Below are positions 4,108-53,850 of a DNA stretch of 64,000 nt, one piece after another. The DNA is from Psychrobacter submarinus (GTDB taxonomy: Bacteria; Pseudomonadota; Gammaproteobacteria; Pseudomonadales; Moraxellaceae). Position 1 is the stretch's first letter, and the number at the start of each line of letters is the position of its first letter. The translations under genes and the position numbers were made by a program. The notes beneath the pieces were generated by a model that worked only from the letters and a program-made list of their open reading frames with translations, was not told the DNA's origin and searched no databases. The stretch lies in NCBI RefSeq assembly GCF_904846685.1, contig NZ_CAJHBQ010000001.1:620001-684000 (forward strand). Reading direction: 5' to 3'.

Positions 4108-4145
4108 AAGTTTGCTAAGAGTATGATGTGAATATCGCACGACCG

Positions 4146-47509: not shown

Positions 47510-47705
47510 GACGGCCTATAGGTCACTTGCCAGAACAAATCGGCTTAGCATAGTAAGGTGAGATTTAACGCCAATGAGTAAAACTATTGCACGCAGTTTA
47601 AAAAACTCTAGAATATTGCTGCGTTTTAATGTTGCTTAACGTTATAATTCAGTTAATATGTTTATGGTGTATTGGTATCAGCTTAATACCTTATAGACTT
47701 TAACT

Positions 47706-47714
47706 TGCTATACT
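47706..47714 (+). promoter_or_regulatory. extended -10 promoter of fimV part 1
   Basis: TGCTATACT, an extended -10 element, ends 27 bases before the ATG at 47741. The same nine bases at the same distance precede the second fimV-like gene (49869-49877). No good -35 is seen. Confidence 0.5.
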
Positions 47715-47740
47715 CTCAGTGGCTACTCAAAGGGCAGCGC

Positions 47741-49834
47741 ATGGCTTGGCAATTACCTTATCGACCGACTCGTCTTCATTGTGCAGTGTCTGCAGCGCTA
47801 TTGTGTTCAATGGGCAGCGCTATATTGTTGCCAGCAGCCATGGCGGCGACTATCGGTAAAACAACCATTACCTCAGCACAGCATGAGCCGCTTGTCGCTA
47901 TTATTAGCATCTCTGACATCGAATCCTCAGACTTCTCAGCCAATTTGGCCAACCCTAAGGTGTATAAACAGCTAGGATTGACCCCGACTGATGCCATGTC
48001 CGTGAGCTTTATCCCTACTTCTGCTAGCACCGGACAGCTGATGATAAGCACCTCTCAGCCAGTCTCAAAGCCTTTTGCCGATGTGGTATTAGCAATCAAC
48101 GACAATGGTCAGCGCAATACAGTGCCAAAAACCTTGCTGATGCCTCTAGGCTCTGCTCAGCCAGCGAAACGCTCAGAACGTGTAAAATCTGCAAAACCTA
48201 TAGTCGCTCGTGCTCCTAAACCCAATTTACCAGTGATTTCAGCGCCAACTGTAACATCGCCAGTCACCAAAAAAGCGCCCATTGTTGCTACTAGCAGCAC
48301 TAAACCCTTAGCAGTTAAACGCGAAGCGCCGCCGCCTTTACTTGCGCCGTCTAGCTCAGCGGCTAATTCAGGCACCATCAATACCGTAAATTCCAAAAAT
48401 AGTAGCGCTCTACCTATTGCGCGCGTAGCAGCGGCTCCGAATCTACCGCTGGCACCAGCGTCAAGATTTGACCTCGAAACGACTGCTAACCCTGCGCCAT
48501 CGATGGCCAAAACTAATACGCTAGATATAAAAAACAATCGCCGCGTAAGTAGCCGCCCTACTCAACCAAGTCCCCCTAACGGCGATATCCCTATCAATGC
48601 TAGCGCCAAAGCTTTGCAGCCAATCCCTAACCGTAATGATACAGCTATCAGCGTTGAAGACATTAATAGCGTTGAAGATGTTGAAAGTATTGAAAGTGTT
48701 GAAAAACTTAAAAGTGTGGAAGGCTTGGTAAAAGCGTCAACTTCGGTAGCATCTGCTGATGCGGCAACTAACGTGCAGCAAACCTTATTAGCGCAAATGC
48801 CAGCCAATAACCGTACCCAAAATAATCAGCCTTCTTTAGAAAACAAAACTGCTAAAACCAGCAGTACGAATAGTAATACGCTAAATATACAAGTCTCGCG
48901 GCAGATTACCGTGCGTAATAGCCCTATTAACAAAGTCGATAGTACCGATAGCCCTACTTTGGCGCTGAGTTTCGATGAGAGTATGGCTTCGCTGAACTCA
49001 GATGATACTGCCAAGCTAAACAGTCAAGTAGCGCATAACTTAGCAACTGCCGCAGATAGCGCTGTGCCTGAGCCTGTGGCGACTAGTAAGAACGCCGCTG
49101 ATAGCGCTTCTGCCAGTACCATCAGCGCTCGCCGCGAGACTGCAGCAACCGATAGCTTGCCAGTCGCTAATGAGAAAATGGTTAGCTATACCGTACAGCG
49201 TAACGACAACCTATGGCTGATCTCCAAGCAAATCGCTGAGCAGAATAATCTTGATATATCAGCGGTGATGAGTCAGATCAAAACGCAAAACCCCAATGCT
49301 TTTATTAATCAAGACGCCGATCAGCTCAAAGCCAATGCCGAGTTGCGTTTACCTAATTATGAGGTAATACCCTCACAAAGCAGCATCCAAGCCGCCATAT
49401 CTGAACAGCGAGCACGCTATCTACGAGCCAATAAAAAAACTGCTAAAGCATCTAGCGAAAAAGCAACAGCGGACAATACTACAAGTGCAGCCTCAGTATC
49501 CTCGCAGATAGCCCAAGCAAAACCAACTAAGTCGGCTAATAGCACAGCAAAACCTACGACTCGGACACTACCACAAGCACGTTTTTCGGTAGTGGCTCCA
49601 GGGGGTAAAGGTCAAGCTGATGGCACTCAAACCAAAGCAGATGCGGCGGCAGGCAATGGGCTAAGTACTGAGGTTCTCGCTTCCCTAAAGTCGTCTCGGC
49701 AGCGCACTGCTACGCAAGCTCAGCGCACAAAACTGATGAATAATAGCCTTGGTAGTTATACACAAAAACTGCAACTACAAAATCAAAAACTGGCTGAGCT
49801 TGAGGCTCGACTAAAAAAATTACGCAATCAATAA
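47741..49834 (+). CDS. FimV-like protein, periplasmic N-terminal half (LysM)
   Basis: 697 residues from the ATG at 47741 (AGGG upstream). Signal peptide ends LLPAAMAATIG. A FimV N-terminal domain (EPLVAIISISDIESSDFSAN, LMPLG) is followed by a long Pro/Ser/Ala-rich linker. A LysM module at about 480-545 (YTVQRNDNLWLISKQIAEQN) would bind peptidoglycan. The end is a coiled coil (LQNQKLAELEARLKKL). FimV/HubP proteins organise type IV pili and the cell pole. Unlike usual FimV, the transmembrane and cytoplasmic parts are in the next gene. Confidence 0.85.
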   Translation: MAWQLPYRPTRLHCAVSAALLCSMGSAILLPAAMAATIGKTTITSAQHEPLVAIISISDIESSDFSANLANPKVYKQLGLTPTDAMSVSFIPTSASTGQLMISTSQPVSKPFADVVLAINDNGQRNTVPKTLLMPLGSAQPAKRSERVKSAKPIVARAPKPNLPVISAPTVTSPVTKKAPIVATSSTKPLAVKREAPPPLLAPSSSAANSGTINTVNSKNSSALPIARVAAAPNLPLAPASRFDLETTANPAPSMAKTNTLDIKNNRRVSSRPTQPSPPNGDIPINASAKALQPIPNRNDTAISVEDINSVEDVESIESVEKLKSVEGLVKASTSVASADAATNVQQTLLAQMPANNRTQNNQPSLENKTAKTSSTNSNTLNIQVSRQITVRNSPINKVDSTDSPTLALSFDESMASLNSDDTAKLNSQVAHNLATAADSAVPEPVATSKNAADSASASTISARRETAATDSLPVANEKMVSYTVQRNDNLWLISKQIAEQNNLDISAVMSQIKTQNPNAFINQDADQLKANAELRLPNYEVIPSQSSIQAAISEQRARYLRANKKTAKASSEKATADNTTSAASVSSQIAQAKPTKSANSTAKPTTRTLPQARFSVVAPGGKGQADGTQTKADAAAGNGLSTEVLASLKSSRQRTATQAQRTKLMNNSLGSYTQKLQLQNQKLAELEARLKKLRNQ

Positions 49835-49868
49835 CCGCTTAGCTGACTAGCAACACTTGCTCTGAGCT

Positions 49869-49877
49869 TGCTATACT
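49869..49877 (+). promoter_or_regulatory. extended -10 promoter of fimV part 2
   Basis: TGCTATACT ends 27 bases before the ATG at 49904, mirroring the upstream gene's promoter exactly. Confidence 0.5.
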
Positions 49878-49903
49878 CAGCACGAATAGTCGTAGGAATC
49901 ATT

Positions 49904-51721
49904 ATGGATAATATGCTATATATCATTGCAGGACTAATCATTGTTTTACTAATAGCTGTGTTGATTATGCGTAGGCAAAAAGCGCAGCCAACCGCTAGAC
50001 ATATAGACGATGCTCCGTCCAGTACTAGACGCGTGCCTACCGACTATGATGCGGCTCGTACCAATGCAACAGCAGGCGCGACTAAGTTTGACAATTTGAC
50101 TGTCGCTGAGCGGTTTATCGATCAGCAGCGTTATGACAAAGCAATCGAGGTACTAGAGCGCGGCCTTATCCAAAAGCCTCATGATGCTAAGCTGTCACTC
50201 AAGCTTCTCAACATCTATGCTCTGACTACGCAGACTGAGAATTTTTATAGAACTTATGACGCTATCAGTGCTCATTGCGATGCCGCTACTATCGCCCAAG
50301 CCAAAGACCTAAAGGCACTATTTGACCAAGAACATTCTCAGACGCCTATAGCAGCACGTGACGATACCCATGCTAATGATCAGCAGCAGGCAGTAGCAGC
50401 GGATTACGAGAGCCTCGACTTCGATGTCGCAAGCGTTTCTAATGAAACGCAGAGTCATCAACAGGATAAATTCAGTACGTCTCAAGAAACTGCGGCGAGT
50501 ACTGACTCTATTACTGACTTAGACTTTGTATCTTCGGCTCCATCAGCGAGCTCTTTTAATGAGAGTACTATCACTGATGATACGAGTAGCAATGACAGTG
50601 CTGATGCTATCTTTGATCTGACCTTAGATGATTTAGAGAGTGAAAGTTTTGATGAGGCTACTGCTAATACAGCCCGCAATCTATCTGTTAACGATTCTGG
50701 CTTAGATAGCCATACTTTGAGCTTAGACGAGCAGTTTGAGAGCGATAGCACTGCTGCATCTACACCTGTCAAAGATAGTCAGGAGAGTAACCTTATCAGC
50801 GAAGATTTTAGTGCTGCTGAAGCTCGCTCTAATGAAGTGAGCTTTGATGAAGTAAGCTCTGATAAATTGAATCTTGATGAAGACTTTAGCCTTGATTTTG
50901 ATGAGCCGGCGGCGAATTCCCTGAGCAGTGAGACGGTAGCGCTGCAACCTACCGACAGTCAAAATGACAATTTACAAGAAGATTTTGTACTAGATTTTGA
51001 TGATCTAGCATCAGATAACCCTTCAAATAGCGATACAGGCATAAGCACCGACCTGAACACCGACATAAATATTGATACTATTGGCGACTCTGAGCTTGCT
51101 GCTTCTGATCTTACGACTGAAGAAGAGACAGCGGACGTCTCTAGTTTTGACTTGGATTTGAGCTTAGACGATGATAATTCAAGCGAGCTGCAACTAGACG
51201 CTTTATCATTAGACAGTTTAGAACAAACAAACACCCAAGAGACGGTAAACGACAATAGCACTTTAGCAGTAGAAGAAAACTTATCCTCTACGGCGTCATC
51301 CAATTCTATCGAGACACTCACTACCGAGCTAGATGATTTCGACTTCGATTTAACTGATTCGCAGCCTATTGAGAATGAGCCAAGCACGACTGAAACTGAC
51401 TCTCCTTTGATGTTCGATGACGAGACGCCTTTTGAAGAGGATTTTAGTCTCGATGATTCTATCTTCGAAGACGCAGCCACGACAGCTAGCCCAGTCGTCA
51501 CAGAGGACAAAGCAGATAATACAGACTTTGCGGCGCAGTTTGCCGCGGATTTTGACTTCGTTAATGATTTAGATAATCAACAAATCACTCTAGACTTAGC
51601 AGCAAAATATTTGGAGCTTGGTGAATACGATAGCGCCAAACGTTTACTCAGCGAAGTTATTGCGCAAGGCAGTAGCGCTCAACAGGCTCAGGCACAAACG
51701 CTATTAGAGCGCACTGTATAA
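49904..51721 (+). CDS. FimV-like protein, membrane and cytoplasmic C-terminal half
   Basis: 605 residues from the ATG at 49904 (TAGGA site); the frame open from 49868 precedes this site. One N-terminal transmembrane helix (MLYIIAGLIIVLLIAVLIM) is followed by RRQK. A TPR-like block follows (ERFIDQQRYDKAIEVLERGL), then a 400-residue Asp/Ser/Glu-rich disordered region. The conserved FimV C-terminal TPR ends the protein (LDLAAKYLELGEYDSAKRLL). This matches the cytoplasmic half of FimV/HubP, including the C-terminal TPR that recruits polar partners. It should act together with the periplasmic half encoded just upstream. Confidence 0.85.
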   Translation: MDNMLYIIAGLIIVLLIAVLIMRRQKAQPTARHIDDAPSSTRRVPTDYDAARTNATAGATKFDNLTVAERFIDQQRYDKAIEVLERGLIQKPHDAKLSLKLLNIYALTTQTENFYRTYDAISAHCDAATIAQAKDLKALFDQEHSQTPIAARDDTHANDQQQAVAADYESLDFDVASVSNETQSHQQDKFSTSQETAASTDSITDLDFVSSAPSASSFNESTITDDTSSNDSADAIFDLTLDDLESESFDEATANTARNLSVNDSGLDSHTLSLDEQFESDSTAASTPVKDSQESNLISEDFSAAEARSNEVSFDEVSSDKLNLDEDFSLDFDEPAANSLSSETVALQPTDSQNDNLQEDFVLDFDDLASDNPSNSDTGISTDLNTDINIDTIGDSELAASDLTTEEETADVSSFDLDLSLDDDNSSELQLDALSLDSLEQTNTQETVNDNSTLAVEENLSSTASSNSIETLTTELDDFDFDLTDSQPIENEPSTTETDSPLMFDDETPFEEDFSLDDSIFEDAATTASPVVTEDKADNTDFAAQFAADFDFVNDLDNQQITLDLAAKYLELGEYDSAKRLLSEVIAQGSSAQQAQAQTLLERTV

Positions 51722-51818: not shown

Positions 51819-52925
51819 ATGGCTTCACGTTCCACATTATCATCTCTCAACTCGCAGTCTGTACAGCTGATTTATGCAGGCGGCACCTTTGGCAGTTATG
51901 GGCGGCCACTAGCGCCGCTTGCCGCCGAAGTGTTCTTACCCGCCTTACAGCAACTTGTCACTGAGCACGATGATGCCGCTTTTTTACCTAAGCTGTGTTG
52001 GTTAGATAACTCGCTTATCAAAGACAGTAGCCAATTAACGCCAAGCGACTTTGTACATTTTTATACGCTGTTACTCTCGGCCTATCAAGCTGGCGAGCGC
52101 CAGTTTGTGCTGATCACAGGGACTGACACCTTAAGCTACTTAGGAGCGTTTTTGGCAGAAGCTTTTGCCGGTTCTGACATCAGTATTACTCTCACAGGCA
52201 GCATGCGTCCACTACTAGATAGCGAAGAGCTGCACGCTTATAAAATCGACAGCCACGGTGATGCTTGGGATAATTTTCGTGAAGCTCTGCGCTTAGCAGC
52301 AGCGGGGCAATCAGGGGTGAAGATATGTTTTGGCGGTGAGTCTTGGCCGGCGCAAACGGTGCAAAAGATTCATAGCCATGATTTTATGGCCTTTACCGGT
52401 CATCACCGCGCTGCCTATCCTGATAATAGCTATATAGATAAGCTGACAGATACTCGCCGGCAGCATTGGCTTGATGACCAACAACAAGTTTTGGCAGCGG
52501 TACAAAATCAGCCACAGCACGCTCATGTTCATGCACTTTACTGCTTGCCTAACGATCCAAGCGTGCTCAGCGAGCAGTTACAAGCGCTGCTGTCAAAACC
52601 GCCATGCGCCATTATCTTATTAGGGTTTGGCAGCGGCAACGTACCTTACTCGCCGCAGCTTGCCGAGGCGCTACAAGCGGCTTATAAACAAGGCCATATG
52701 GTAGTCTGCGCAAGCCAATGCCCATTTGGCGGCGTGAGTAGCAGTTACGCCGCGGGCAGCTGGCAATATGATTATCACGTCATCGCTGGTGGACGCCTCA
52801 CTCTCTCTGCGATCTACGCGCGCCTACTGTGGTTATTGCTACGTTACGACACCCCTGCCCGTAGACGTCAGCGCTGGACTTATAGCGTTAACCAAGCAGG
52901 AACTTCTACGAGTCGTCAGCGCTAA
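51819..52925 (+). CDS. L-asparaginase (type I-like)
   Basis: 368 residues. Catalytic Thr regions: first in LIYAGGTFGSYG, second in ITGTDTLSYLGAFLAEAF with the TDT motif; SMRPL and GSGNVPYSP are also conserved. The first motif normally reads TGGT; here AGGT retains the Thr. No signal peptide, so cytoplasmic; hydrolyses asparagine to aspartate and ammonia. It ends 43 bases before truA. Confidence 0.85.
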   Translation: MASRSTLSSLNSQSVQLIYAGGTFGSYGRPLAPLAAEVFLPALQQLVTEHDDAAFLPKLCWLDNSLIKDSSQLTPSDFVHFYTLLLSAYQAGERQFVLITGTDTLSYLGAFLAEAFAGSDISITLTGSMRPLLDSEELHAYKIDSHGDAWDNFREALRLAAAGQSGVKICFGGESWPAQTVQKIHSHDFMAFTGHHRAAYPDNSYIDKLTDTRRQHWLDDQQQVLAAVQNQPQHAHVHALYCLPNDPSVLSEQLQALLSKPPCAIILLGFGSGNVPYSPQLAEALQAAYKQGHMVVCASQCPFGGVSSSYAAGSWQYDYHVIAGGRLTLSAIYARLLWLLLRYDTPARRRQRWTYSVNQAGTSTSRQR

Positions 52926-52968
52926 ACAATCCCAAACTCATAAAATAAGCTTAAGCACCTCAACCATT

Positions 52969-53850
52969 ATGACCGACTCTTTATCAGATAACGCTCAGCC
53001 AATAGTGCCGCAAGACGAGCTAATCCAACACACCGATGAAGACACTCCTACTTACACTTTAGCGATAGCTATCGAGTTTTTGGGGACTCATTATTATGGC
53101 TGGCAACGACAAAAAGAGGTTTTAGGCGTCCAGCAAGTCCTAGAGGCTGCTATTAGCAAAGTCGCTAACGAGACAGTAGAAGTGGTCGCCGCAGGACGCA
53201 CCGACTCTGGGGTACACGCAAGTAACATGGTCGCTCACTTTGTCACTCGAGCCTACCGACCTACCCATAATTGGCTGCGCGGTGTCAATAGCTTATTACC
53301 CGATGATATTGCACTACGCTGGATTCAGCCGATGCCAAGCGATTTTCATGCGCGCTTTAAGGCCATCGCTCGGCGTTATCGCTATGTTACGCTCAATCAA
53401 GACACGCGCCCGGCTATCTTAAACCACCAAGTGACTCACATTCATCAGCCACTTGATCTAGCCGCAATGCAAAAGGCTGCTGCAGACATAGTAGGAACGC
53501 ATGATTTTACAAGTTTTCGCGCCGCAGCTTGCCAGTCCAATCAGCCGGTGCGTACCATCAGTCATGCCAAGCTCTTTGCTCATGGCGCCTTTATTGTATT
53601 TGATATTCAAGCCGATGGCTTTTTGCATCATATGGTACGTAACTTAATGGGTACGCTGTACGCTATCGGCCGTCACGAGCTGCAGCCGGACGACCTCTTA
53701 GCTATTTTAGCGCAAAAAGATCGTACGATTGCCCCGCCGACCGCTGCTGGTGATGGACTTTATTTTATAAAAGCGTATTATCCTGACGAGTACGAGTCGC
53801 TGCTCCCAAAAGAGCCATTGACTCCAATTTGGCTCAATCTGCCAGATTAA
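52969..53850 (+). CDS. truA: tRNA pseudouridine(38-40) synthase
   Basis: 293 residues from the ATG at 52969; longer frames overlap the asparaginase gene. Catalytic Asp in AGRTDSGVHASNMVAHF; RRYRYVTLN, FRAAACQSNQPVRTI and DGFLHHMVRNLMGTL are family motifs. An N-terminal extension of about 30 residues precedes the core. It modifies the anticodon arm of many tRNAs. Confidence 0.95.
   Translation: MTDSLSDNAQPIVPQDELIQHTDEDTPTYTLAIAIEFLGTHYYGWQRQKEVLGVQQVLEAAISKVANETVEVVAAGRTDSGVHASNMVAHFVTRAYRPTHNWLRGVNSLLPDDIALRWIQPMPSDFHARFKAIARRYRYVTLNQDTRPAILNHQVTHIHQPLDLAAMQKAAADIVGTHDFTSFRAAACQSNQPVRTISHAKLFAHGAFIVFDIQADGFLHHMVRNLMGTLYAIGRHELQPDDLLAILAQKDRTIAPPTAAGDGLYFIKAYYPDEYESLLPKEPLTPIWLNLPD

Follow-up and report, generated by a model that had tools for sequence, protein, structure and literature searches.

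We analyzed a stretch of 64,000 nucleotides from Psychrobacter submarinus (contig NZ_CAJHBQ010000001.1, positions 620,001 to 684,000 of the forward strand; this whole stretch is hereafter the window), in which the landmark protein FimV, involved in positioning type IV pili, is specified by two complete genes, as against one gene in most relatives of the order. The original prediction had proposed such a division, and it is borne out by two intact frames of 697 and 605 amino acids (aa) lying 69 bases apart:

47741..49834, plus strand: fimV-N, 697 aa, from the ATG at 47741 to a stop at 49834; the exported periplasmic half of FimV, with a signal peptide, an immunoglobulin (Ig)-like FimV_N domain (37-124), a low-complexity linker, a LysM-like FimV_core region (489-551) and a C-terminal coil.
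49835..49903, plus strand: intergenic stretch of 69 bases, containing the second of two copies of the motif TGCTATACT.
49904..51721, plus strand: fimV-C, 605 aa, from the ATG at 49904 to a stop at 51721; the membrane-anchored acidic tetratricopeptide repeat (TPR) half, with a membrane helix (4-22), a first TPR (about 66-106), an acidic linker and a FimV_Cterm TPR region (562-603).

The product of fimV-N matches the FimV_N model PF25800 at 37.4 bits (cut-off 27), and ten of ten relatives likewise score above that cut-off. The fimV-C product matches the FimV_Cterm model TIGR03504 at 52.9 bits (cut-off 30.65) together with TPR models, and its family profile recovers the solved FimV C-terminal domain (4mal/4mbq) with an E-value of 6e-16; its cytoplasmic part is acidic (D+E 22.6% versus K+R 4.5%). 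As judged by hydropathy, the single strong hydrophobic segment across the pair is the start of fimV-C, and no hydrophobic 19-mer above 0.92 occurs in fimV-N beyond residue 60. The positive charges behind the helix suggest, by the positive-inside rule, an N-out, C-in topology for fimV-C. No terminator-like site was detected in the 69-base gap (49835-49903). In FimV and HubP all the parts belong to one polypeptide; the window uses two genes, and because the parts sit on two polypeptides we class the pair as a two-gene variant of FimV, distinct from the ordinary form.

We searched 199 genomes of the family for FimV_N and FimV_Cterm, the results referring to the matches listed; genera are numbered, with g1 the genus of the window and g15 Acinetobacter. 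Of the 26 genomes of g3, g4, g5, g6, g9, g12 and g13, 25 carry both domains in a single frame of about 900-1050 aa, the exception (G019) having its fimV broken between contigs, and g2 has a short one-piece FimV of about 550 aa. The domains lie in separate frames in g1, g7, g8, g10, g11 and g15, as a reading of the DNA confirms for loci of g7, g8, g10 and g11; in g14 both halves are present, on different contigs. For the 66 genomes of the window's genus, 52 loci were read and nine genomes were not fetched; the start of the C half was found by pattern in 49 loci, the other three (L099, L103 and L124) being unmatched by that pattern and hence unpaired. All 49 paired loci are split, none of them carrying the single-gene fimV that the original prediction had named as contrary evidence; three more genomes have the C half alone and two have neither half. 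In an Acinetobacter-type set, comprising the best 80 of 107 relatives from a scan with the N half (79 from Acinetobacter and one from a 'Moraxellaceae bacterium'), every locus (80/80) has an adjoining C half bearing an N-terminal membrane helix, at a distance of 46-341 bases (median 65) from the N half. The break point is constant, being immediately ahead of the membrane helix. The split proposed for one locus therefore holds across a wider range than had been foreseen, taking in at least six genera, Acinetobacter among them.

Among the matches listed for 140 genomes of the order that lie outside the family, no clean split came to light; G210 and G284 have short C frames, and apparent splits in G220, G221, G236 and G288 were rejected, as their DNA shows frames that overlap and stretches of undetermined bases. 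Those four cases do look like the products of a frameshift, sequencing error or pseudogene that has divided one gene, and some N halves of the window's genus are indeed broken (L068, L126 and L130). Against such an explanation for the window stand the identical break in all genus and Acinetobacter-type loci (49/49 and 80/80), the C half's own ATG with a ribosome-binding-like sequence, and the selection on both genes: ratios of nonsynonymous to synonymous substitution (dN/dS) across nine pairs of genus loci lie between 0.14 and 0.29 in the N half and between 0.15 and 0.39 in the C half, with silent sites saturated in the pair that includes the window. Both halves are under purifying selection; the split is real and no local mutation, and we accord the artifactual explanation, refuted at this locus, practically no credence.

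The two-gene arrangement bears directly on FimV of Acinetobacter. According to the available text of PMC9596432, the A. baylyi protein ACIAD0477 had been missed by bioinformatic tools, was identified as a FimL-binding protein, is a truncated homologue without the periplasmic domain, and positions pili and recruits FimL and PilG. A 2026 paper, naming A. baumannii, likewise describes Acinetobacter FimV as completely without a periplasmic domain (PMC12918733, in the part available). We find that the gene upstream of the Acinetobacter C half encodes a FimV_N domain above the Pfam cut-off in eight of eight proteins tested, with FimV_core matches in all eight, one of them above its cut-off. The AlphaFold2 model for the N half of A. 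nosocomialis shows an Ig-like domain, is helical where the LysM-like region lies, and closes with a single long helix (403-449). With a mean pLDDT of 59 and a pTM of 0.30 (pLDDT about 80-89 in the Ig-like part), its usable parts are the Ig-like domain, the helices at 285-329 and the end helix, and it is no proof of a LysM fold; its best matches in the PDB are Ig domains, at low TM-scores over the whole query. Hence, the domain thought lost from Acinetobacter FimV probably sits in the next gene upstream, and from the other Acinetobacter loci we strongly expect the same arrangement in A. baylyi, which is not among the named loci. As far as the literature was searched, this placement is new, and no account of a two-gene FimV was found in the open-access literature, subscription papers and preprints lying outside the search. 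It would supply a candidate for a part believed lost. Furthermore, the A. baylyi study ascribed lateral pilus placement partly to the truncation of FimV (PMC9596432, available text); if the upstream gene is the missing domain, that model of pilus placement needs a second player.

The one-piece FimV proteins of g5 (4/4), g12 (1/1) and g9 (4/4) offer a clue to how the break arose, in that they contain an internal signal-peptide-like segment between the coil and the membrane helix, about 400-470 residues into the chain, with a positively charged start, a hydrophobic run, and an AxA site after which come an A and, in many cases, an acidic residue. No such segment precedes the helix in any of 11 one-piece FimV proteins of g2, g3, g4, g6, g13 and four outgroup genomes. 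The rule used here is our own and lenient, rather than a trained predictor, and it also flags another internal site in L259 and the membrane helix of two g2 proteins. All four split C halves of g11 start with a matching signal peptide ahead of the helix, while none of the 30 C halves from g1, g7, g8, g10 and g15 has an N-terminal signal peptide. An internal start codon as the cause of the segment in g5, g12 and g9 was rejected, there being no conserved in-frame start upstream. In a tree of RpoB (27/30 genomes), g5 and g12 are sister to the clade holding the split genera, with support of 98/95. As g5 and g12 carry the segment and occupy this position, the segment probably predates the split, and the break probably occurred at it. 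One-piece FimV with the segment and g11 C halves with a signal peptide are thus apparent intermediates of the fission, new within the literature searched, and they afford an unusual view of the steps by which a membrane protein gene may be split. More tentatively, and with the balance of our judgment against it, the FimV of g5, g12 and g9 might be a polyprotein whose internal signal peptide is cut by signal peptidase I to give two pieces even before the gene is split, fission having merely fixed that cut in the DNA, perhaps more than once (in Acinetobacter, g11 and the clade of the window). If so, this would explain why the break point is identical everywhere, and what has been called the truncated FimV of Acinetobacter would represent half of an ancient two-part landmark.

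How the halves might meet is a separate question. The original prediction had them linked through the coiled coil, which now appears doubtful: fimV-C of the window has 3 residues ahead of its helix, and among 30 C halves without a signal peptide this number is 0-15, with 0-7 in 28 of them. Of the 49 N halves of the genus, 39 have a conserved coil end, which is also nearly invariant in alignments from Acinetobacter; in the other ten, whose loci keep both genes, it is degenerate, truncated or missing. In L068, L126, L130 and others of the genus, the end of the N half is stopped early or lies in another frame, with the C half intact, a picture suggestive of gradual decay of the coil within a section of the genus. 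The conservation of the coil end, and its prediction by AlphaFold2 as one long helix in the A. nosocomialis N half, are what one would expect if the coil bound the C-half helix, or the few residues outside it, directly and so rebuilt FimV. However, C halves start at the helix and offer no coil partner outside the membrane, ten loci with both genes lack an intact coil end, and one-piece FimV carries the same coil, where no such role is needed; we therefore regard direct binding as improbable. With so little of the C half protruding on the outer side of the membrane, and with the coil end degenerate or gone in 10/49 loci, the coil is unlikely to be the linker, and contact via shared clients is the most likely route.

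One such client may be the pilus secretin PilQ. A FimV_N match is absent in 24 of the 199 family genomes, in which a profile of ten N halves found nothing but one weak LysM-type hit (G091), both positive controls being matched. Three of the 24 (G008, G052 and G055) have no PilQ match; among the other 21, PilQ is short in 17, namely eleven genomes of g10 (441-502 aa), four of g1 (594-663 aa) and two of g15 (531 and 672 aa). In genomes with FimV_N, among those listed, PilQ measures 738-848 aa in g1, 701-725 aa in g10 (9/9) and at least 686 aa in g15, where PilQ of G098 is short because its contig ends within it; two short frames from other genera reflect a contig end (G014) and a fragment in a contaminated genome (G064). 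At the contig ends of G014 (L055 and L279) the FimV-N and PilQ frames are cut short, and the peptide strings that end them we take to be translated sequencing adapter. The Pfam AMIN domain occurs as two stretches in seven of eight PilQ proteins tested from genomes with FimV_N, and as one in the eighth; it is absent in 14 of the 17 short PilQ proteins (all eleven g10 genomes without FimV_N, plus G108, G128 and G193), and single and weak in the remaining three (G102, G105 and G113). Since G102 and G108 have lost the N half and kept the C half, yet have a short PilQ, the association tracks the N half. On a PilQ tree, the genomes without the N half fall in four lineages, three with loss or decay of AMIN and one without. 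As far as we searched, this association is new, with few events behind it. In P. aeruginosa, the FimV LysM and PilQ AMIN domains are both required for placement of the machine, and PilQ multimers drop without FimV (PMC5285504, available text); by analogy, the three-lineage co-loss fits that result. PilQ of M. catarrhalis is without AMIN and that of A. baylyi has two (PMC10653833, available text).

We posit, as the more probable account, that the two-gene FimV arose by gene fission within the family, with the N half acting at the secretin, the C half positioning the pilus machine, and the two joined via shared clients. Under this proposal, fimV-N would be a soluble, Sec-exported periplasmic protein, probably held on peptidoglycan via its LysM-like domain, which may help place or assemble PilQ. 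The product of fimV-C would cross the inner membrane once and, through its cytoplasmic TPR domain, recruit the Pil-Chp factors FimL and PilG and so may position the pilus machine, as others have shown for the A. baylyi C half (PMC9596432, available text). The halves, which remain adjacent and belong to the same pilus, may meet via the PilMNOP-PilQ machine in the absence of a covalent link. As to origin, a one-piece FimV would first have gained, between its coil and its membrane helix, the signal-peptide-like segment; a break in the gene at that place would have followed, with the signal peptide at first heading the C half, and later the membrane helix alone would have become its start. PilJ (PF13675), taken as a marker of Pil-Chp, is matched in 16 of 36 genomes and not in that of the window or in G095; as the model misses divergent PilJ proteins, it was dropped as a guide to whether the C half accompanies Pil-Chp.

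Several observations weigh against this proposal. The FimV_core (LysM) match of fimV-N to TIGR03505 (E 1.4e-7, 31.2 bits) lies below the cut-off of 43.45, and matches in relatives (10/10) exceed it in two of the ten. In the RpoB tree, one-piece g9 groups with Acinetobacter (82/90), which therefore calls for either re-fusion in g9 or separate splits in Acinetobacter, g11 and the clade of the window; a tree of Asd including g8 leaves the choice unsettled. In A. baumannii W068, transformation was unaffected by deletion of the gene named fimV (PMC8811193, in the part available). A full-length PilQ persists without FimV_N in G121 and G165 (731 aa each, a complete sister pair, each with two AMIN stretches), and in G112 (716 aa) and G016 (733 aa), which are only 63% and 68% complete; the co-losses amount to three lineages only. 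Finally, C halves occur without N halves in G008, G102 and G108, and the halves thus need not work together. In these genomes a tgt-like gene (presumably so, by its resemblance) occupies the usual fimV-N stretch (L071, L069 and L070, respectively), and the C half in L069 is without the first TPR.

These last genomes lend weight to another explanation, by which fission parted two functions that no longer cooperate, fimV-C being a scaffold that places pili and fimV-N a peptidoglycan or secretin factor, with the two remaining neighbours by descent. The lone C halves are themselves short (frames of 300-452 aa), as is PilQ where found (645 and 594 aa), and the A. baylyi C half alone accounts for the localisation phenotype (PMC9596432, available text). 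The adjacency has, however, been held across at least six genera, most genomes of the clade keep both halves, and in g10 both are absent together in thirteen genomes (twelve without G112; for G109 and G112, among the matches listed). We consider such independence rather unlikely, and prefer the proposal of two halves serving one pilus.

The motif noted above occurs ahead of both genes:

47706..47714, plus strand: TGCTATACT, extended -10-like, 5' of fimV-N.
49869..49877, plus strand: TGCTATACT, 5' of fimV-C; poorly conserved.

The last base of each copy lies 27 bases before the A of the respective ATG, as had been claimed. There is no further exact copy of TTGCTATACT within the 64-kb window, and a 12-base run identical in register with both ATGs was matched in 0 of 5000 shuffles of the upstream regions; the coincidence is real in the P. 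submarinus genome. Neither site passes a simple -35/-10 scan, and TGCTATA occurs within 90 bases of the fimV-C ATG, the side that this count covers, in 4 of 49 genus loci (the window, L068 and L126 at -35; L061 at -46). As it is not conserved, the shared promoter is dropped as a sign of function: the motif is a trait of this species and carries no weight for a functional split. The claim that the split is no mutation thus survives through the 49 split loci and the purifying selection, and not through the equal promoters offered as its reason. Many relatives share a common genus layout with a 51-base gap between the halves, which suggests that the usual arrangement is more operon-like. In L051 (g8), fimV-N and fimV-C overlap by four bases (4109-4112), suggestive of coupled translation. 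In-frame TTG codons at 47705 and 49868 lie within the repeated motifs, and a mechanical frame call begins both proteins with MLYS from them. We do not favour the TTG of the repeated TTGCTATACT as the start of either gene: the ATGs have a ribosome-binding-like sequence ahead of them, and in L061, a close relative, fimV-N has no such TTG start in front of it.

Downstream of the pair lie two further frames:

51819..52925, plus strand: asparaginase-like gene, directly downstream of fimV-C, so named on a presumed resemblance of its translation.
52768..53850, plus strand: truA-like frame, its real start probably further in.

The order fimV-C, asparaginase-like gene, truA recurs in Acinetobacter-type loci. 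In Pseudomonas, fimV has asd and truA as its neighbours, truA being the usual one downstream; the Acinetobacter-type loci, with asd and truA as neighbours, resemble that locus. In three g2 loci (L045, L046 and L047), a second gene past truA matches FimV_N and encodes a membrane helix at its C-terminal end.

Comparison with known systems places the pair close to FimV and HubP in content and apart from them in construction. TspA of Neisseria is named as a FimV homologue, and HubP of Vibrio and Shewanella shares by description the LysM domain, membrane helix, acidic region and FimV domain, being one-piece and without the Ig-like domain (PMC12918733, in the part available). The fimV-C protein resembles ACIAD0477 in its N-terminal membrane helix, cytoplasmic region and FimV C-terminal domain; no partner gene is reported for ACIAD0477 in the available text of PMC9596432, whereas in 80/80 Acinetobacter-type loci the gene directly upstream encodes the periplasmic half. 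The one-piece Pseudomonas FimV runs from a signal peptide through an Ig-like domain, LysM, a membrane helix and an acidic region to TPR, and the pair repeats this order, with a LysM-like region in the place of the LysM. In contrast to it, the pair of the window consists of two polypeptides, with no covalent bridge from peptidoglycan to cytoplasm; this raises the question of whether a physical connection between wall and cytoplasm is essential to such a landmark, as these bacteria appear to manage without it.

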